From: a virus
DNA: 20,122 nucleotides
Virus record (IMG/VR): IMGVR_UViG_3300037485_002005
Coordinates: 1-20,122 of that record
Reading direction: 5' to 3' (one strand)
Below the pieces are notes generated by a model that did not search any database, had not been told where the DNA came from, and saw only the letters and a list, made by a program, of their open reading frames with translations. Each line of letters starts with the position of its first letter. Within the stretch, counting starts at the first letter, position 1. Shown one piece after another: positions 2,142 through 20,122 of the stretch. Position numbers and translations under genes: made by a program.

Positions 2142-5100
2142 ATGGCGGTAGTAATTGACATTGAAACTAAAGCGGATTCTGCTAAAAGAGATTTGGATAG
2201 TTTAAACAAAAGTTTAGCTAAGCTGGTTACTTCGTCAAACAATTCAAATAAAGCTTTAGGCAATATTTCCGCAAATAGTTTTAAAAATATAAATAACGAT
2301 TTAAAAACAAATACTAAGGCATTTGAAAATTTTGGAAAAACTGGTAATTCAGCTTTTTCACAACTTAGTAAATCTTCCAACAAAGCCTCAGAATCTGTAA
2401 GTAAAGTCAGTAGCAGTACAAACAAAACCAGTTCTGCTCTCTCAGGTTTAAAAAATACAGTCTTAACGCTTTCAGCTGCATTTTTAGGAATGAGAGGTGT
2501 TTCTGCATTTAATAAAGCTGCAGATGATTTGACCAGTTTGCAAAACCGTTTAAAGTTGGTTGTATCTGATACAGAAAAACTAAGAGAAGTACAAAAAGAT
2601 TTATATAAAATCTCAAAAGAGACAAACACAGAATTTGGAAATACAATAAAAATTTATTCCGATTTCTCACGTGCAAATAAAAGTTTAAGACTTTCTCAAC
2701 AAGAACTTTTAAACTTAACAAAAACAATTAACCAATCGGCAATATTATCAGGTAGTTCTGTTGAATCTGTCAACGCAGCTCTTGTTCAATTTTCTCAAGG
2801 TATAAGTTCAGGAGCTTTTGCTGGAGATGAGCTTAGATCGGTTTTAGAGCAAATCCCCTACCTTGCACAAGGAATAGCAACACAACTTGAAAAGACAACA
2901 GGTGAATTAAAGAAATTTGCTTCCGAAGGCGGTTTGAGTCCAGAAACAGTAATCAAGGCTGTTCATAGAATGGCTGTTAAAACAGAGCAGGACTTTAAAC
3001 TGACAGTAATTACTTCAGAACAAGCGGTGGCCAGACTTGCTGTTTCGTTCAATTACATGCTTGCCGAGATTAATCAATTTTTCGGAGCATCGGAAAAATT
3101 TGCAAAAAAGCTACTATCACTTTCAGATGCAGTTGATACTTTCAATAACTCGATAAGAGATTCAACATTAATTTTAATTCAAAGACTAAGGAATTATATT
3201 CGTCAATTTGACATCTTTGATAAAATGAAATTGCTTGTTATTAGTATTGATGTCGTTGGAAAATTAAATGTAAATTTTAATCCTTTTACTGCTTATGATA
3301 GACTCAAAACAATCATGAGAATTAAAAAGGCAATAGGTTTTGGCAGAGAGATAAAAGAAACAATAGACTTAAATACTGATGTTTCAGCTGAAACCGCTGA
3401 TGATCCTCAATTTCAAAGCAAGGTAAAAAATAAAATTAAAATTATTGAGGAACTTAAGACAGCATCATCTCTGTTTGTAACAAATATAAAAAGATTAATG
3501 CCGGAATTTAGATTGGCTGTTGTTACAGCCTCAAGTCAAGCGACGAGAGATTTGAAAATATTCGGATCAAAATCAGAAGCAATAACATATGAACAACTTA
3601 TACCTTTTGCAAGAAGTTTAGAAAGTATTGCAGAAAAAATGACACTATGGAGAATAGCTGATAATGCTTTATCCAGATCTTGGGTTAATCTCTTTAATTC
3701 TACAAATTTAGTAGAATTTACAAATAACCTAGAAGAATTAAACAAACAAAGGCAAAAAACTGATTTGAGTGACTCTACTTTAAGAGTCTTGCGATACAGC
3801 GCGGCATTAAATACAGTAATAAACCCAATACAAACAATGCTTGTTGAGCTAAATCTTCTTGACAATGCACTTATCAGAATACAACAAAGCAGACTAGATC
3901 GAATAATTGGATATTTTAAAAATCTTGGAAAGGTTGTTACACGTGTTTATCAAGATATTTTTGCTCCTACACTAGAACCATTTTTAATAAAGATTGCAGC
4001 TATTGTAATTGCCGAAATAGAGGCTGTTGCGGACGCAATTAATGATATGTTTAACCTGTCTTCAGGAAAAGAATTTGCAAAAAATCTTTTCGAAATGTTT
4101 AATAAACTATTTAAAGATATTAAAGTATTCTTTAAAACTTTAGAGAGTAACGAAAACCCATTAAATAATTTATTTAAAAATATTAAAATCTCTAAAATAC
4201 AGTCAAGCTTAATAACAGCATTCAAGAGTATATTTGAATTTATTAAAGGATTTTTCTTACAAGTAGGTAACGAAATTAGCGATAGTGCTGTAGGTGATCT
4301 TTTTGATGACTTTTCTAATAAGGTTCAAAAAGAAATTTCGTATTTAAAACATTTTTACAAAGAAATTAAAAATAATATTTCAGAAAAAATTTTAGATTTT
4401 AAAATAAATTTTGCACTTAATTATATCTTTAATCCTACTCCTTTACAAAAGGCATTAAAACATCTTTTTAATCTATTTGAAAAGTTATCAGAAACAGGTG
4501 AAAGTAAATTAAAGATTGTACAAGAAAGGATTAAGTTATTTTCTGAAAGTATTATAGATTATTTCTATAATATATATGATAAGGTTGTTGGACATTCATA
4601 TTGGCCAGATATGATTGACGGTGTAAATGAATATGCACCTAATATTTTCAAATCAAAAGGTATTATAGAAAACTTTAAAGACAGTATAGTTTCTCTTTTT
4701 AAAACGCTTTCCAAAGATATTTTAAACGTTGCAAATGATATTGGAGGGATATTTAAAATTATTGTTAACAAGATAGCTGAACAGAATATTTCAGATATTT
4801 TTAAAGTCTTAGGAGAAAGATCTGGTGCAACCTTTTTAGCGGGTATCCTTTTTAGTTTTGGAGACCCCAGACTCAAAATAATGGCAGTTGCATACTTTGT
4901 GTCCTTAACAGATGCTGTTTTTAAAGGCATTGTTACAGATATTGGTCCTTATTTTGCTACAATATTTGGATCAATGATTGGCCAATTTTCGGCAAATGCT
5001 CTAAAAGGTTTGATGACTATACTTAATACAGGCATAAATGCATTTCCAGATATTGTCAGTAAATTTATCAGCTCATTGTCTCCTGTTTTTGGCGTTTTTA

Positions 5101-8100
5101 CTTCTATCCTTAGTAATTTTGAAATATTTCAGAATAGCCTTTTACACGGAATACTATTAATTGGTGCAGCATGGGCTCTTTTTACTAAAAAAGGATCTAA
5201 AGATATTTCAGAGATTCTATTTGGAAAGGCTGCTAAGAAAGGTAAACCAAAAACAGAAGGAGTTATTGATTATTTAAAAGCAGCATTTATTTCCGAAAAT
5301 GCTGTGGCATTACAACCTAAAGTTTTAAGCTTTTTTGATAAGGCGTTTAATAATAAAAAATTAGCATACATTGCAGCAGCAGCTTTTGGAACAGCAATTT
5401 TTGACAGTATTTCAATCATTGAAGCAAGTCAGTTTGGAATCCCTTTATTAGCTTTTGCAATAATGGGTAAAGACGGTGGCGGTAAAATACTTCGAGAAAG
5501 TATAACAATGATTTCTTATTTTGGTTCAACCTTGTTAGGGATATTTTTAAGACGTATTGGACTGGAAAGTGCCGCAACTTCTTTTTTAAAATCATTAATA
5601 CCTGAAAAACCTGAAATGAAATCTGCTTTTGAAAAAGCAGGTTCTGATTTGTTTAGTTCTTTTAAACAAATGGTTATAAATTTAAGATCAAATTCTAAAC
5701 AATTAGGTTCTGGTGTTTTCTCGTTTAAAGATGCTTTATTAAATACAAGAGAAGATATTCAAAAAATAAGACCCCTTACATCACAAGATAGATTGCGGCC
5801 AGCAACAAATATTGGTAAAATCACAAGAATACCAATTAAGTCTCAGTTAAATAAAACGATTGAAGAGTTTTCTTTTACAGATACAGGCAAAAAGTTAAAA
5901 TACAACTTTGATTTAATAAAAGATTCTATTGAAAATGCATTTTTAAATTTTCAAACAACATTTGAAAAAGGTTTTAAAATATTAAGCAAACTGACAAAAA
6001 CAGGTCTTACCAGTATTGTTGATTATTTTTCAGACCCTGCGCTTATGGGCAAAATTGGCAAAAGCATTAACGCCTTATTAGGAGCTATAACGTTAAGTTT
6101 TAAAAGTGTTTTTAATAATGCAAAAATAGGTCTTTCAGGTTCAATCAAAGCAATATTGATAACAATAAGTGCTATATTCGGTCAATATGCGTCTGCAGCT
6201 TCAAATTCAGAAGCGGCTGTCGATTCGCTTCAAGATAGCATTACAATGATTACCTTATCAACAGTAGGGCTGGTTGCTGCTTTTTCAACAATTGGCTACT
6301 TAATGAAGGCCTATAAAATATATAGTAAAGAAGGCTTTGATGCAACCATTCTTTATTTTAAAGATTCAATAAAGTGGATTACAATCTTATCTGATAAGTT
6401 TTCAGATTTTATAAAATTGTCTGCCTTTAAAAGTGAATGGTGGAAAGAAAAAGGCAATTTAGTAAAGAATCATTTTAAACTTTCTCCAAGTTTTGCAAAA
6501 CAATGGATATCTGCTTATAATTCATTAATCGGCAAAAATAATGGATTATTAACATCTCTTGGTGAATTGTATGCTACAGAAACAGGTCTTTCAAAAATAA
6601 TAGTCTTATTAAAAATAGTAGGCAGAGCCTTTACAAGTTTTGGAAGCGGTGCTATAAGATTAAGCTTATTATCGCTACTGGCTTATTTAGAAACAATTCG
6701 AAGTTCTTTTACAGGATTTGTAAAACTTGTTTCATCAGATAAACTTTATAATGCTTTGAAGAAAAACTTTACTTATAGCCTTTTTACAAGAAAGATGATT
6801 GACGATTGGTCGACAACATATAAAAAGGTTGAAATGTCTATGCCAGGACTAGATAAAGTTGGCAATAAGTTTATAGCTTTTTTACATTTTGTTATATTAT
6901 TTCTTTCAGCTTCAAGCGAAACATTTTATATGCTTAATAAAGCAATCATTATAATTGGAGACTCAATTGCACACACTTTGTTTTCTTTATTAAAACCTGG
7001 TACTCTAGTTAAAAACATGATGACAGGGCTTTCAGGAGTTTTTACAGTTGCTGTAGAAATGATTACAAGTTCTTTGTTTTATCTTGCAAGAACAGCTTTA
7101 AGCGTTATAGGTAAACTATTACGAATGGTTGCTCCATTCGTAGGAATTGTTACAGCGGTTGGTGCTTTTGGTCTTTATTTATTCGGTCCTGGAAATACTT
7201 TTGTAGATAAGATTGAATGGGCCTATGATAAAATAAGAAGTATATTTGATCTTAAACCAACAACACGTTTTGGTAAAATGAATGAAATGTTGGAAGCAAC
7301 AAAACCTATAAGCATGGGAGGAAATGTTGCAGACCTTCAGAGTGCTGTTGCAAAGATTGATGTAAAGAAACAAAATGCAGCAGAATTTGTTGTATTGAAA
7401 GAGGCAGCTGATGCAGCCACAACGGGTTTGAAAGATTTACAAACCTTATATATAAAACAAGGTTATGTTTCTGAAGAAATGTTACAAGAATGGAATACTC
7501 TTGTAAACAATTTTAAAGATATTGCATCAAATCAACCTCAAGATACTACCAAAGCTCCTGAATCTTTAAAAGATCTTGCTGTATCTATGCTGGAGGTAAA
7601 GACAACTGCATGGGACTTGACAAAAGCTCTTTTAGGTATTTCTGATACATTCTCTGAAGAAATCTCAGGAATAGAGTACAATATTGAAAAGTCTAAACCA
7701 AAAATAAAGTCATTTATGCAAAGTCTATCTGACTCTTTAATGACAGGATTGGACACAGCCATTGAAGTTGGCTTTGTAGCAACAGTAGCCAACAAAATAA
7801 GTAGAATATTCACTGCAATAAGTTTGCCAAAACCATCACAAATGGCATTGACAACAAGAGAGTATGTTGCTCAAGTTGCTGCCAGAGATGCTTTAATAGC
7901 AGGTTCTGGAAAGCTTGCAGTTGGTGCTGTTAGTTGGCAACTTGCAATAGCAGCAACAGTTGTACAAATGACTCCTGCAATAAAATCCTTAATGGCTTTT
8001 GGTACTCATTTGCGATTCTTAGGGATAGAAGGTACAAGTAACGCTGTTATTTTTGACAAGCTTGCTAAAAAGTTCTTAAACATTGATGATGCAGGTTCAA

Positions 8101-16300: not shown

Positions 16301-17555
16301 AACTCGGTCTTTTATTGTTAAAGTTTATAGTGTGGACATTTCAGGTTCTTTGTCATCAGCAATAACTTTGACAGTTAATAACCCTGTACCCACCCTGACA
16401 GCTTGGACAGTATTGCCAAGTTTTAATTCTGTGAGTGTAAAAATAACAAACTCAGCTGAATTGGATATCAATGAATATCGTATTTATAAATCTCCAACTC
16501 CAAATTTCACGAAAGATTCATCAACTCTTGTCTATGCAGGAAAAGAAACTTATGTGAATATTAATGCATTGGGTGAAGTTTTGTATTATTATTCGACTTC
16601 AATAACAGATACATTCGGTGATGCTGGTATATCTTTTTCTCAAGAGCAATCGGCAATGTCAGCCAAGACAGATCCTGATACATATACATATACAGGTTTA
16701 ACTTTTGTTGCAAATCATAATGCAGCTCAATCTGTCTCAAACGGTGTTGATTCAGGATATGCTCTGAATAATGTATATTGGTCAGCTTTCACTGTGTCAA
16801 AAAATGGAGGTACAGCGTCTTCGTTACCTGCAGGAACTGCGGCTTGGACTACAGGTGTATTGTATATTTATTATATTCCTGGAGATACTGTTTTAAGAAC
16901 CAATGTAAGTCTTTTGGGAGCAATTACCGCAGGTGGAAGGATTCTCGCCACATATAAGGGTGGAACAGATCTTACACATGATGAAGGCCGTGCTTTTGTT
17001 TCTGGGGATCAGTTGCTTGCCGGAACAGTAGGCGCAAACGCTTTAGTCACAAATACTGCTGTGATTACAAACTCAGCCCAAGTTGGTAATATACTTGAAA
17101 GTAGTAACTATAGCTGGACAACGGGCAACTATGCCGGTTGGCGAATTGATAAAACAGGGTATGCTCAATTCGGTGGTCTGACAATTCGTAAATCTAATGG
17201 CGATTTGGTAATGTCTGCAGGAAACGGTGTTGAATGGGATACAGGAATTACAGGTACAGGCAAACCTGCTGATGGTGCAACTGTGGGTGGAAGCTTTGGA
17301 GGTATAGATGGGGCAGGTGGAAACATTTCAGGAACAATTAATTCTGGAAATGCGTCCACCTATATTGCCGATGCTGCAATAGGTACTGCTCAAATAGGTA
17401 GTTTAAGTCTTACCGGTACAGATTTCAGTTATAAATCCAGTGTAAATACTAGTGCAGACCGTATTGAAATGGATAGCCAAAGTATAAGAATATATGCAGC
17501 AAACCCTTTAGGAGGAGCAGCAATACTTCGAGTTAGATTGGGGAATTTGTCGTGA
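13347..17555 (+). CDS. Tip attachment / receptor-binding protein, lambda gpJ-like
   Basis: 1402 residues from ATG 13347 (1407 if ATG 13332 is used). The protein should form the trimeric tail tip that contacts the host surface. The start is hydrophobic (FWTQLVMLIISVASTAYQMV, residues 3-22). It is followed by the gpJ-type core, with ELPTEGRAEFLPKVYGKAKVGG at about 45-66 (its GRAEFLPKVYGKAKVGG part is typical), NPAWCLLDYLL about 261-271, and SILETMGDARLVWSGGKYKL about 346-365. From about residue 700 there are fibronectin-III-like units and two copies of a beta domain (about 812-899 and 1111-1209). The C-terminal part has DQLLAGTVGANALVTNTAVI and then GWRIDKTGYAQFGG, a layout common at gpJ C-termini; the last 50 residues are Gly/Ala/Ser-rich. 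Distal modules probably determine receptor specificity. The TGA overlaps the next GTG start (GTGA at 17552-17555). Confidence 0.9.
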   Translation: MGFWTQLVMLIISVASTAYQMVQASKKKVTNPATSDAAAQARLGFELPTEGRAEFLPKVYGKAKVGGVRVYHNTTSAFKYTSTNADRSFQTGPTSIAGGTFSRVKKDVSGNLYNEVENYASIDSGELSKDIEGTKNEFLFFQQALCQAPINGIIDVIIDESRHLDDPALGSFKAEVWSKVKAAMRIDIHNTGNASDSIMSANFSERLDAKFKDIAYASVVIRLDRDDPQFSSVPALQFLMEGSLVRKVIGGVLSTTYVYSNNPAWCLLDYLLDTKSGKGVNPLTEVDLASFEDVAAVCEMIVQQDAIVGGKLYQPTDDSRNIYTRDLPLYECNLITDPKKSIRDNIESILETMGDARLVWSGGKYKLSLQYPANNQELNVAATITDDVLSLDQSVEINWPTASQRFNNCTLRFHNECEDFKEDSVSWPPKVTTTIFKGIGGFNYSPSIGEYDEDTAGGRLLNKYGVWSGGGTTTTLDYKFLVSKIQSGACTLTISADSAMTLTIKDDITNTVIYTLSSTAAKSINTLALNLGNANIDKVYSIHITASGGSKTRAVSASITSTNYVIWTTRTLAYTAFVTNVLNSAVYDEMLIEDSGLVLELDMFSEGITDAYHALAKAEELVRTSRSAFGLKFSYVVKSVYLEPGDYISINSDTLLIGSGVDPLYFRVESVKITEENTCEVFASRFDYTQLAWSIKDDQYPKPPPVYDSRIPAPEWIEYTPQASGLTNSSGYLNWASVSLVDTYVLYVHTSNDLIDENGIPVFTEIGRTPTTSFSLPLLNATSAYFGVKASLNGRLSQMTYTDTSSPILLDQYTYSFTNLSFTYNSPSTNQISWNNFTITLNGIVTKNISAGNATWTSDHLYIYYNPISNLVLSTTLINIANSGKLLAIYDGGNNLVVKVSNLDPPINLYVKDTTAGIYSNKDLELTWEYPLSNDNKTDVFSHYLIQLYTTSNVLKHSEKVEYSTNRSGYYKLLFSNNINYFGTATRSFIVKVYSVDISGSLSSAITLTVNNPVPTLTAWTVLPSFNSVSVKITNSAELDINEYRIYKSPTPNFTKDSSTLVYAGKETYVNINALGEVLYYYSTSITDTFGDAGISFSQEQSAMSAKTDPDTYTYTGLTFVANHNAAQSVSNGVDSGYALNNVYWSAFTVSKNGGTASSLPAGTAAWTTGVLYIYYIPGDTVLRTNVSLLGAITAGGRILATYKGGTDLTHDEGRAFVSGDQLLAGTVGANALVTNTAVITNSAQVGNILESSNYSWTTGNYAGWRIDKTGYAQFGGLTIRKSNGDLVMSAGNGVEWDTGITGTGKPADGATVGGSFGGIDGAGGNISGTINSGNASTYIADAAIGTAQIGSLSLTGTDFSYKSSVNTSADRIEMDSQSIRIYAANPLGGAAILRVRLGNLS
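15780..16043 (+). repeat. Beta-domain repeat, copy 1, inside the gpJ-like gene
   Basis: Encodes about 88 residues beginning QYTYSFTNLSF and containing NISAGNATWTSDHLYIYY and GKLLAIYDGGNNL. It aligns with the segment at 16677-16973 by eye: YTY-F/L-T/S start, AGxAxWTxxxLYIYY core and the LAxYxGGxxL end. The divergence shows an old duplication or two independent acquisitions. Confidence 0.75.
16677..16973 (+). repeat. Beta-domain repeat, copy 2, inside the gpJ-like gene
   Basis: Encodes about 99 residues beginning DTYTYTGLTF and containing LPAGTAAWTTGVLYIYY and GRILATYKGGTDL. It matches copy 1 at 15780-16043 in order and spacing of these motifs; the loop after the first strand is about 10 residues longer. 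Two fibronectin-III-like segments lie between the copies. Confidence 0.75.
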
Positions 17556-18142
17556 GTTACGGATTACAAATATTCAATGCTCAGGGTAATCCAATCATGG
17601 ACACAGATGAGAGATTTACGAGAGTCTATGGGACTTACAACAACATTACGATACAAGGAACTCGCACTACAACTAATGATACAAAATACGTACAGATGTC
17701 TACATTTTCAAAGTCTGTATCTGTAAACTTACCATCAACAATTCAAAACTGGGCACCAATGATAGTGTCAGCTACTTCCGTATGGACAGGTAGCAACACG
17801 CTAGTGCAAGTTAATGCTAATACCACTAGAATGGTTGACGGTATAAGTTATGCAGTACATGTAAATGCTTTTGCAGGTAAGGGAAATTATCTTAATATTT
17901 CTGAATCAACTGCATTAGTGCTTACAGGTGGACAAGCGATGCAAGAAGATGGTAATGGTGCAGGACTTCCTCCAACTGCAACCGACTTAAGCCCAAGGGT
18001 TTCAGCAGAAGCCGTACCAGGGTCATCTCCTTCTGTTAAACTATATTATACATATTTAGCAAATATTTCCCACAAAGACATTGTTAGAGTTTATGCATCA
18101 GAAAGAAGAGCAACAATTTCTTTTATAATTGTAGGATATTGA
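17552..18142 (+). CDS. Tail-associated protein, MSYG paralogue 1
   Basis: 196 residues, beginning at a GTG that overlaps the gpJ-like stop, with GGGG (17540-17543) 8 bases upstream. The GTG start is supported because the next gene also begins MSYG. The first 29 residues (MSYGLQIFNAQGNPIMDTDE and on to RV) match the following protein at M-S-Y-G-h-x-I-x-N-x-x-G-x-x-I-x-D, where h is hydrophobic. The rest is strand-rich, Thr/Ser/Val-rich and has no signal peptide, membrane segment or cysteines; it ends RRATISFIIVGY. Small proteins with this MSYG-type start commonly follow gpJ-like genes in siphoviruses and have no experimentally fixed role that I can name. A part in decorating the tail tip or fibre is inferred from position. 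Confidence 0.75.
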   Translation: MSYGLQIFNAQGNPIMDTDERFTRVYGTYNNITIQGTRTTTNDTKYVQMSTFSKSVSVNLPSTIQNWAPMIVSATSVWTGSNTLVQVNANTTRMVDGISYAVHVNAFAGKGNYLNISESTALVLTGGQAMQEDGNGAGLPPTATDLSPRVSAEAVPGSSPSVKLYYTYLANISHKDIVRVYASERRATISFIIVGY

Positions 18143-18143
18143 C

Positions 18144-18785
18144 ATGAGTTATGGAATAGAGATTAGAAATCAATATGGTGAAATTATTCTTGACAATACC
18201 CCTTACTCTGTTATGAGGGTATTAGACGGTTATCCTGCAACAACGTCTAGACACACTGCAAAAAGAAGTTCTCTTTTTTCAGTTAATTCTGGTGAAGCTG
18301 TTTTTATTCGAGCATCAAACGATGGTGGGGTTGGGGGAGCAGGTGACGGATTATCTCCTAATAGTTCACTTGATGTAATAAGTACTGATTCGGGTGATTT
18401 AACGTATGTTAAAATAAAATCTTGTGAAAACCTTACAGCATCAGGCTATGGTTTAGCTGTGTTCAGTAATGAAGGTACTCCAAAACTTGTATTCTCTGAT
18501 TCTATTAAATTTGCAAAACTTGTTTATGCAAACTACCTCTCTGTTCCTAGTACAGGAGTTACTGTAAATATACCTGCCCTGTCAGTAGGTATGCATCGAT
18601 ATGTTTCTTTATACTCTTTTGGATTATGTGGAAATAGTAGCCAAAATGATGCTGATATGCTAAGAGTATCTTTTGGTTTGACTACTGCAACATTTAGTAA
18701 AGAAGCTTGGGGTTTTGGCTCTAAAACATTCACCTCGGTAAATTCATTCCAAATACCAATAGGTATTACGATAATTGAATGTTAA
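18144..18785 (+). CDS. Tail-associated protein, MSYG paralogue 2
   Basis: 213 residues; ATG 1 base after the preceding TGA, with AGGAT (18133-18137) 6 bases upstream. The N terminus MSYGIEIRNQYGEIILDNTP parallels the gene before it, so the two are paralogues at least over the first 30 residues. The rest has diverged: a glycine-rich turn (RASNDGGVGGAGDG, about residues 52-65), several predicted strands, two cysteines (one in KSCENL, one in LCGNS) and another at the very C terminus (IIEC). There are no catalytic motifs. Tandem paralogues at this place suggest adjacent subunits of a tip or fibre assembly, or a duplicated receptor-interacting module. The function remains unknown. Confidence 0.75.
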   Translation: MSYGIEIRNQYGEIILDNTPYSVMRVLDGYPATTSRHTAKRSSLFSVNSGEAVFIRASNDGGVGGAGDGLSPNSSLDVISTDSGDLTYVKIKSCENLTASGYGLAVFSNEGTPKLVFSDSIKFAKLVYANYLSVPSTGVTVNIPALSVGMHRYVSLYSFGLCGNSSQNDADMLRVSFGLTTATFSKEAWGFGSKTFTSVNSFQIPIGITIIEC

Positions 18786-18791
18786 AAAGAA

Positions 18792-18830
18792 TTTAGATAG
18801 TAATATCTAAAGCGACACAGCGCAACTGTG
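18792..18830 (+). other. Two consecutive RNA hairpins in the intergenic gap
   Basis: The 70-base gap holds a perfect 8-bp stem TTTAGATA (18792-18799) / TATCTAAA (18804-18811) with a GTAA loop. Then comes a 5-bp stem CACAG (18816-18820) / CTGTG (18826-18830) with a CGCAA loop. No U-tract follows either, so they are poor terminators. GTAA and the central GCAA of the second loop are tetraloop-like, so RNA stabilisation or processing is possible. Confidence 0.45.
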
Positions 18831-18855: not shown

Positions 18856-19731
18856 ATGGTTGATCCAACTGAAGATACAGGTAGCATGCCTGAAAGTACA
18901 CTCGCTAAAGATGTAAAAACTATTTTAAAATCAATCGGAGAAAGTAACATGGGTAATTTATTGGGTAATGCAGGTCAAGACGGCATGGGCGGTGGAGTAT
19001 TATTGGGTTTGCTTTTGGGCAGATCAGGTATACTTGGCGGTGAAAATGGTGTTGCTTCTGAAAGAGCTGCCATTGATGCTGCTGTGGCTGCTGCTTTAGC
19101 TTCTTCAAATCAAGCCAATAACAACTCTATGTTACTTTTGAAGGATATTCAAGATAGCTCACAGCAAGTTATAAACAATGTGACCGCAGGTACTCAAACC
19201 TTAATGGCCACAAGTTTGCAAGGTCAAATCGCAAATCTTCAAGGTCAAGCAGGTATTCTTGCCGGTGTTGAATCTGCCAAAGGTACTGTGGTTAATGAAA
19301 TACATGAATCTTCAACTGATCTGGGTAATGGTATCAGTACACTTGCTGCATCAACTGCTGCCGCTTTCGGTGTTGTAAATACTAACATCGCAAGTCAAAC
19401 TGCAACCACACTGGCTGCTGTCAATGCGGATGGTGAAAAGACTCGTGCATTGATTCAATCGATTTCAACTGCAGATTTGAATCGTCAGATCACTGTGGCT
19501 CAAAATGAAATTAGCGATTTACGTCACGATAGACGCATTCAAGATTCGGGTGTGAATGTGACCAACAACATTAATCAAACTGCTGTGGCAACAGCTAATG
19601 CAACCGCTCAACAACAAATTGTTGGGTTGTTAAGTACACTTGCTTCAAGTTTACAACATAATACAAATTCTATTGTTAATTTAGGTACAATGAGAAATTC
19701 TGGTCAAGCAGCTACTAACGTAGTGGCGTGA
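18856..19731 (+). CDS. Helical glycine-rich virion-associated protein, probable fibre base
   Basis: 291 residues; ATG with AGGAGA (18845-18850) 5 bases upstream. Residues 1-30 are polar and acidic. A glycine-rich hydrophobic stretch (GGGVLLGLLLGRSGILGG, about 45-62) follows. Then a long region (about 65-280) is rich in Ala, Gln, Asn, Thr and Ser with heptad-like hydrophobics, e.g. NSMLLLKDIQDSSQQVINNV and ADLNRQITVAQNEISDLRHD, consistent with an extended helical or coiled-coil trimer. NVTNNINQTA (about 235-244) recalls asparagine-rich segments of similar phage proteins. No enzyme motif is seen. After its TGA (19729-19731) the same frame continues into a collagen-like tract, so this may be the N-terminal stalk of a longer readthrough fibre protein. 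The exact family is not recognised; a structural role is inferred from context. Confidence 0.75.
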   Translation: MVDPTEDTGSMPESTLAKDVKTILKSIGESNMGNLLGNAGQDGMGGGVLLGLLLGRSGILGGENGVASERAAIDAAVAAALASSNQANNNSMLLLKDIQDSSQQVINNVTAGTQTLMATSLQGQIANLQGQAGILAGVESAKGTVVNEIHESSTDLGNGISTLAASTAAAFGVVNTNIASQTATTLAAVNADGEKTRALIQSISTADLNRQITVAQNEISDLRHDRRIQDSGVNVTNNINQTAVATANATAQQQIVGLLSTLASSLQHNTNSIVNLGTMRNSGQAATNVVA

Positions 19732-19767
19732 ATTAGAACACCTGAACGTACCCGTAAAAGAGATGGA

Positions 19768-20122
19768 TTGACCTATATCGTTGGACCGAAAGGTGATAAG
19801 GGTGATACTGGACCACAAGGTATTCAGGGTGAAATTGGACCACAAGGTGTTGCGGGACTTGATGGAAAAGATGGAGACAAAGGAGAAAAGGGAGATCAAG
19901 GCAACACGGGAGCAACAGGAGCTAATGGCAATGATGGCAATAAAGGAGAAAAAGGTGATAGTGGCTCCAATGGCAATCAAGGTAATGATGGACCAAAAGG
20001 TGATAAAGGAGATCGTGGTAATGATGGCTCCACCGGACCTAAAGGCGATACTGGCTCTAAAGGTGATAAAGGCGATAAAGGAGATACTGGTCCCAAAGGG
20101 GACAAAGGAGAACCTGGACAGC
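19768..20122 (+). CDS. Collagen-like Gly-X-Y fibre protein (partial, 3' end outside)
   Basis: The frame is open from 19732, directly after the TGA of the preceding gene and in the same phase, to the window end. From 19783 it encodes 37 uninterrupted Gly-X-Y triplets plus a further Gly-Gln, with many GDK, GPK, GEK and GDT units, i.e. a collagen-like triple-helical shaft as found in phage tail fibres. Between the TGA and the first triplet are 17 residues rich in Arg and Lys. No ATG or GTG occurs in this frame there: the only common alternative start is TTG at 19768 (giving MTYIVGPKGDKG), preceded by a weak AAAAGAG (19756-19762). The start given here is therefore provisional; readthrough of the TGA, making a fusion from 18856, is the main alternative. 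The receptor-binding end presumably lies beyond the window. Confidence 0.7.
   Translation, partial: MTYIVGPKGDKGDTGPQGIQGEIGPQGVAGLDGKDGDKGEKGDQGNTGATGANGNDGNKGEKGDSGSNGNQGNDGPKGDKGDRGNDGSTGPKGDTGSKGDKGDKGDTGPKGDKGEPGQ
19783..20122 (+). repeat. Collagen-type 9-base periodic repeat tract
   Basis: Imperfect 9-base units coding Gly-X-Y run to the window edge. Near-identical blocks such as AAAGGTGATAAAGG recur (for example near 19999 and 20060), giving many short direct repeats that could recombine or slip in 9-base steps and keep the frame. Confidence 0.85.

Follow-up and report, generated by a model that had tools for sequence, protein, structure and literature searches.

A conserved extension without a start of its own behind the TGA stop of a siphovirus tail-module gene: probable UGA readthrough in ten phage lineages

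The 3' end of a siphovirus tail module raises the question of how a frame without an evident start of its own might be translated: gene P ends in a TGA, and the same frame then runs on into a collagen-like tract. The window, that is, the whole stretch of DNA analyzed here, is an IMG/VR virus record of 20,122 bases, whose end it includes. It encodes a major tail protein, tail assembly chaperones, a tape measure protein (3341 amino acids), distal tail and tip proteins, and two small proteins, followed at the 3' end by P (18856 to 19731) and the collagen-like tract. Judged by the tail-tip protein, EBPR siphovirus 1 is the nearest named relative (41.6% identity over 815 amino acids of the J-like tip protein of 1407 amino acids); no P homolog was present in the two stretches of this phage inspected. 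The tail chaperones are encoded by two adjoining open reading frames (ORFs) at 1150 to 1805, one spanning 1150 to 1479 and the other lacking a clear start and reaching to 1805, which is the usual gpG/gpGT-type frameshift arrangement and is likewise found in L106. Both small proteins, encoded in succession at 17552 to 18785, start with MSYG(L/I) and are possibly a duplicated pair; other genes take their place in the closely related contig L002. An inverted repeat (TTTAGATA-gtaa-TATCTAAA, 18792 to 18811) and a structured-looking leader precede P. From 18792 onward, this leader is nearly identical in L002 and L006 despite upstream genes unlike those of the window, which would suit either a border of recombination or an expression leader.

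P comprises 291 amino acids and is encoded on the plus strand. Its Gly-rich, hydrophobic N-terminus is followed by a predicted helix of about 166 residues. AlphaFold2, supplied with 18 sequences, modeled the protein as a single helix (residues 65 to 230, pLDDT 70 to 90, pTM 0.22) with low-confidence ends, and a second structure model, that of the L129 relative, gave the same rod. No annotated family matched P, except for a weak match of some relatives to the unnamed phrog_9288. In the absence of virion data, its role as a virion component is inferred. The stop codon lies at 19729 to 19731 in the context GCG TGA ATT, and re-reading of the sequence confirmed both the position and the frame given in an earlier note on this DNA. 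In relatives with 40 to 48% identity (L003, L005, L007, and L089 to L094), P stops at the same aligned place, as it does in L102 and Flavobacterium phage FL-1. The TGA is thus the old end of P.

Beyond the TGA, the P frame stays open for 17 codons (19732 to 19782, IRTPERTRKRDGLTYIV) and then enters Gly-X-Y repeats. On the plus strand it encodes a variable basic spacer, IRTPERTRK (19732 to 19758; a similar SPDTRKATTRNGL occurs in another frame of L003), the conserved motif R-D-G-L (19759 to 19770), a hydrophobic strand T-Y-I-V (19771 to 19782), and the collagen-like tract (19783 to 20122), of which 37 complete Gly-X-Y triplets and a Gly-Gln are present before the contig ends at 20122. The reading-frame check thereby bore out the earlier description, in which 17 open codons precede 37 triplets and an ATT at 19732 and a TTG at 19768 stand in place of a regular start. 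Neither ATG nor GTG occurs anywhere in this frame. The tract, located downstream of tail genes, matches Pfam PF01391 (E=1.1e-20, 73.6 bits versus a cutoff of 27.2). The second contig, L002, encodes a P with 94% amino acid identity to that of the window behind different immediate upstream genes, and it shares the TGA and, base for base, the 17-codon spacer. Here the tract is complete: the extension comprises 141 codons after the TGA and ends with ...GEPGQPSNPGNDNNNK-TAA, the next ATG follows 9 nucleotides on, and no globular tip terminates the collagen.

A search with the gene located after the collagen identified L113, and the P protein of L113 in turn led to L129 to L134 and L142/L143. All relatives except that of FL-1 stem from metagenomic contigs; two scans of cellular genomes returned none, and among isolated phages only FL-1, which lacks the extension, was found. 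In ten phage lineages, P, its TGA, and an extension of 13 to 141 codons form one frame with a common [R/K/Q]-x-G-L motif. The extensions read NRYGLVSLGSKSR in L089, TTKRYGLVYYKGK in L129, VKPKKYGLVLITTEI in L130, KKGEKEVKYGLKILERP in L005, EYRPKMKRYGLLILKTEK in L132, and IEATIVPTIEVKKAKPKQHGLVTITKGK in L133; longer ones are TPVALDD...SPRSGLKQL in L113 (60 codons) and IPVAFDD...SPRNGLVNKKV in L131 (61 codons). Collagen stands behind the motif in two lineages only, namely in the window and L002 (IRTPERTRKRDGLTYIV plus collagen) and in L134 (TKMSDLTNVQSGIQSGLVILQDND... plus collagen, 139 codons), whose repeat sequence is different. In most lineages, the frame remains open until 1 to 9 nucleotides before the next gene, which lies farther away in L134. 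The earlier note had pictured a helical stalk prolonged by a collagen fiber; the two do lie in one frame, but the conserved unit is P with its TGA and a short [R/K/Q]-x-G-L extension. When TGA was translated as Trp, MAFFT produced an alignment in which the TGA position and the G-L of the motif are invariant in all rows. The spacers between them keep the frame throughout, at lengths of 1, 3, 4, 7, 7, 9, 13, 17, 52, and 53 codons; with lengths this different, the DNA was not simply copied. AlphaFold2 modeled the fused window protein with a hairpin in the extension (E299-302/E305-308) that turns at the x-G of the motif and includes the T-Y-I-V strand, at low confidence (pLDDT about 50); for L129, the model shows only a bridge at R-Y-G-L.

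An open frame downstream of a stop codon carries little weight by itself, with a chance of roughly one in five, and becomes significant through the relatives. This estimate derives from 58 gene pairs of the family contigs with gaps of 30 to 250 nucleotides, the control counts being the total minus the P rows: 9 of 50 control pairs were open to the next gene. In the same contigs, the motif followed 8 of 8 P genes and none of the 50 control genes, and dinucleotide shuffles of the individual lineage sequences placed it in an open P frame in 0.3 to 3% of cases. Thirteen lineages bear the motif, ten of them in the P frame (binomial probability of at least 10 of 13, 0.0016). TGA terminates P in all ten in-frame lineages and in none of the three others (Fisher p = 0.0035), against a background of 59 TGA among 164 stops (36%). 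Between L113 and L131, the extensions differ by indels that are all multiples of 3, show a dN/dS of about 0.47 (0.21/0.44; for P, 0.27, from 0.16/0.60) and an excess of identical amino acids (p = 0.045), and have remained free of stops, whereas a stop arises in 79% of random mutation sets. The definition of the motif followed inspection of the data, and the p-values are only guides, not results from independent samples, because the lineages share ancestry.

We consider it likely that programmed or tolerated readthrough of the UGA produces a minor, C-terminally extended form of P, a proposal made without protein or ribosome-profiling data. Among the possible readings, the leaky TGA suggested in the earlier note has the strongest comparative support, which comes from the ten lineages, the motif, the frame, and the identity of the stop codon. 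The locus meets the sequence criteria of programmed readthrough: a downstream ORF in frame, lack of its own initiation signals, a conserved UGA, and an extension conserved at the protein level, with invariant G-L, codon-like variation, and the L113/L131 dN/dS ratio. P would be made mainly as the 291-amino-acid form, and a minority of ribosomes would insert an amino acid at the UGA and add the extension; if the analogy with Qbeta holds, this is probably Trp, delivered by tRNA-Trp. In most relatives, this would be a tag of 13 to 61 residues with the [R/K/Q]-x-G-L motif, possibly a beta-hairpin; a collagen-like shaft may have been inserted later behind this ancestral tag in the window phage and in L134, so that only a fraction of the P subunits would carry a fiber. 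Phase, missing starts, and conservation of motif, frame, and TGA are observed, while readthrough itself, its efficiency, the inserted amino acid, the presence of P in the particle, and fiber display are inferred. A helical rod bearing a small tag or collagen on some copies would fit a minor longer subunit form, with the caveat that the place of P in the virion has not been shown. Against readthrough stand the out-of-frame motifs of L003, L142, and L143, the absence of an extension in L102 and FL-1, and the lack of a shared stimulator.

In these three out-of-frame relatives the motif follows a TAG (L003) or TAA (L142 and L143), and the extension has therefore either been lost there or is reached by frameshifting. 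L143 has RYGLISLKKGR-TAA in the -1 frame directly before the next gene. In L142, a 67-codon tract without a start (4736 to 4938) contains RYGLT in the -1 frame; it stands behind the TAA TAG at the P end and overlaps the beginning of the following gene. A 96-codon frame without a start (5746 to 6036) is present in L003; it is +1 relative to P and holds SPDTRKATTRNGLVLLEG, similar to TPERTRKRDGL of the window. No start codon occurs in the motif frame of these three lineages, and no obvious slippery site was seen. These lineages may have lost the extension, may owe the frame change to assembly errors, or may use the same device in a frameshifting form. In the tree, in-frame TGA extensions occur in both main groups; L003 is sister to the TGA-bearing L005/L007, and its out-of-frame state therefore looks derived, while the positions of L142, L143, L102, and FL-1 are unsure. 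That one conserved P extension is reached by interchangeable recoding, through UGA readthrough in the ten lineages and, in L003 (+1) and in L142 and L143 (-1), through ribosomal frameshifting close to the stop of P, is a conceivable but rather unlikely generalization. If true, it would imply selection on making a minor extended P, whatever the mechanism, and the tag would offer a site at which new display modules, for example collagen, could land.

The region after P might instead be a conserved noncoding DNA or RNA element, such as the leader of the next gene, in which the [R/K/Q]-x-G-L reading is fortuitous. The letters TATGGTTTA, common to many copies and located just before the next gene, would suit such an element. 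It is made improbable by the codon-like variation of the motif, with Arg written as CGA, CGG, CGT, AGA, or AGG and Leu as TTA, TTG, CTT, or CTG; in a column permutation, this pattern reached p = 0.0009 for the 13 lineages and p = 0.08 for the ten in-frame ones. Moreover, between the motif and the next gene there may be only a few codons or more than a 120-codon collagen tract, the frame is kept over spacers of 1 to 53 codons, and TGA goes with the frame.

We also doubt strongly that the extension is a separate small gene, initiated at TTG 19768 or a near-cognate codon and coupled to the end of P translation. Phages commonly use termination-reinitiation, the TTG lies 36 nucleotides after the stop, and in L134 an ATG forms the third codon after the TGA. 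Nevertheless, the Shine-Dalgarno (SD) pairing at the TTG, described as weak in the earlier note, amounts to -2.9 kcal/mol, a random-level value that 36% of random window positions equal or better, compared with -3.8 to -8.5 kcal/mol for other genes of the window; at the L134 ATG it is only -2.1 kcal/mol, and it is weak or absent in the other extensions tested. The TTG, the only start candidate in the window extension, is the Leu codon of the motif. Initiation at this codon, which the earlier note had kept as an alternative, falls away because relatives write the same Leu with the non-start codons TTA, CTT, or CTG. Likewise, a TTG in the L113 extension is TTT in its homolog L131, and the extensions of L129, L131, L089, and L005 contain no ATG, GTG, or TTG at all. 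Initiation would also not need the P frame, yet ten of 13 motifs lie in it. SD energies and the codon at the TTG position led us to reject a separate collagen gene with a normal start.

It appears very improbable that the extension was translated ancestrally but has since become neutral or begun to decay in several lineages including the window, as its out-of-frame state in three lineages and its weaker constraint relative to P might suggest, since long open extensions of 60, 61, 139, and 141 codons persist and two lineages have in-frame collagen tracts. One fused gene might also have been split by a sequencing error or a recent nonsense mutation, for which a single base would suffice in one contig. 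As a general explanation this can be excluded because the same TGA occurs in L002, with its identical spacer and full tract, and in nine further diverged lineages, and because relatives that lack the extension terminate P at the same aligned position.

Genome-wide reassignment of TGA was rejected: the 3341-codon tape measure gene contains no in-frame TGA, and TGA is common as a stop. With reassignment excluded and an own start unlikely, UGA readthrough remains. The base after the TGA is A in eight of the ten lineages, and a Gly, Ala, or Ser codon precedes it in nine of ten; UGA-A is a leaky context in Escherichia coli. No RNA structure downstream of the stop common to the lineages and no downstream stimulator were detected, with only L133 and L005 folding clearly better than shuffles after the stop. 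No Rfam element was found, nor was a suppressor tRNA on the contig parts examined. Without a shared RNA structure, readthrough would depend on the local context alone, a common situation in bacteria.

Functional stop-codon readthrough is textbook knowledge for small RNA phages, and tailed phages are known for frameshifting. In Qbeta (Leviviridae), UGA ends the abundant coat protein, and its occasional decoding (as Trp, about 1/15) yields the minor extended coat protein A1 (PMC8067240). P resembles this system in having an in-frame extension behind UGA and a proposed minor form, but it is a gene of unknown function in double-stranded DNA tailed phages, with a variable tag or collagen extension and no sequence relation to the Qbeta protein. 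Programmed frameshifting in structural genes of tailed phages, such as lambda gpG-gpGT and those of PSA, A118, and A500, likewise provides two C-terminal forms from one start (PMC5009743). There, however, the frame changes, whereas the P extension stays in frame behind TGA in ten lineages; a second ORF in another frame is missing in the window and the nine other lineages and exists only in L003, L142, and L143, which might be frameshift counterparts. The Gly-X-Y tract matches the profiles of collagen-like phage tail fiber proteins (PF01391; PHROG 6320, 819, and 5073). Other collagen loci retrieved by a spacer search were discarded as counterparts; they lack the spacer and look like ordinary ORFs, most of which have long leaders or additional domains, while the tract described here has neither a start nor a tip domain. 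The only isolate found with a P relative is FL-1, whose hypothetical protein APZ82874.1 shares 37% identity over the C-terminal half (E = 3e-9) and the same NSIVNLGTMSGSGQT end but stops at TAA, with the next gene 4 nucleotides on.

A description of readthrough of a tailed-phage structural gene was not found in the open literature searched, the coverage of which was incomplete. If readthrough of P is true, the conserved UGA and the extensions without starts, in at least ten lineages, would represent an added route of decoding that lets tailed phages combine a long and a short form of one protein, and gene callers that stop at TGA would miss the extension in every such genome. That two collagen tracts stand in frame behind one and the same tag suggests how a fraction of the subunits can gain a fiber while no new gene is needed.
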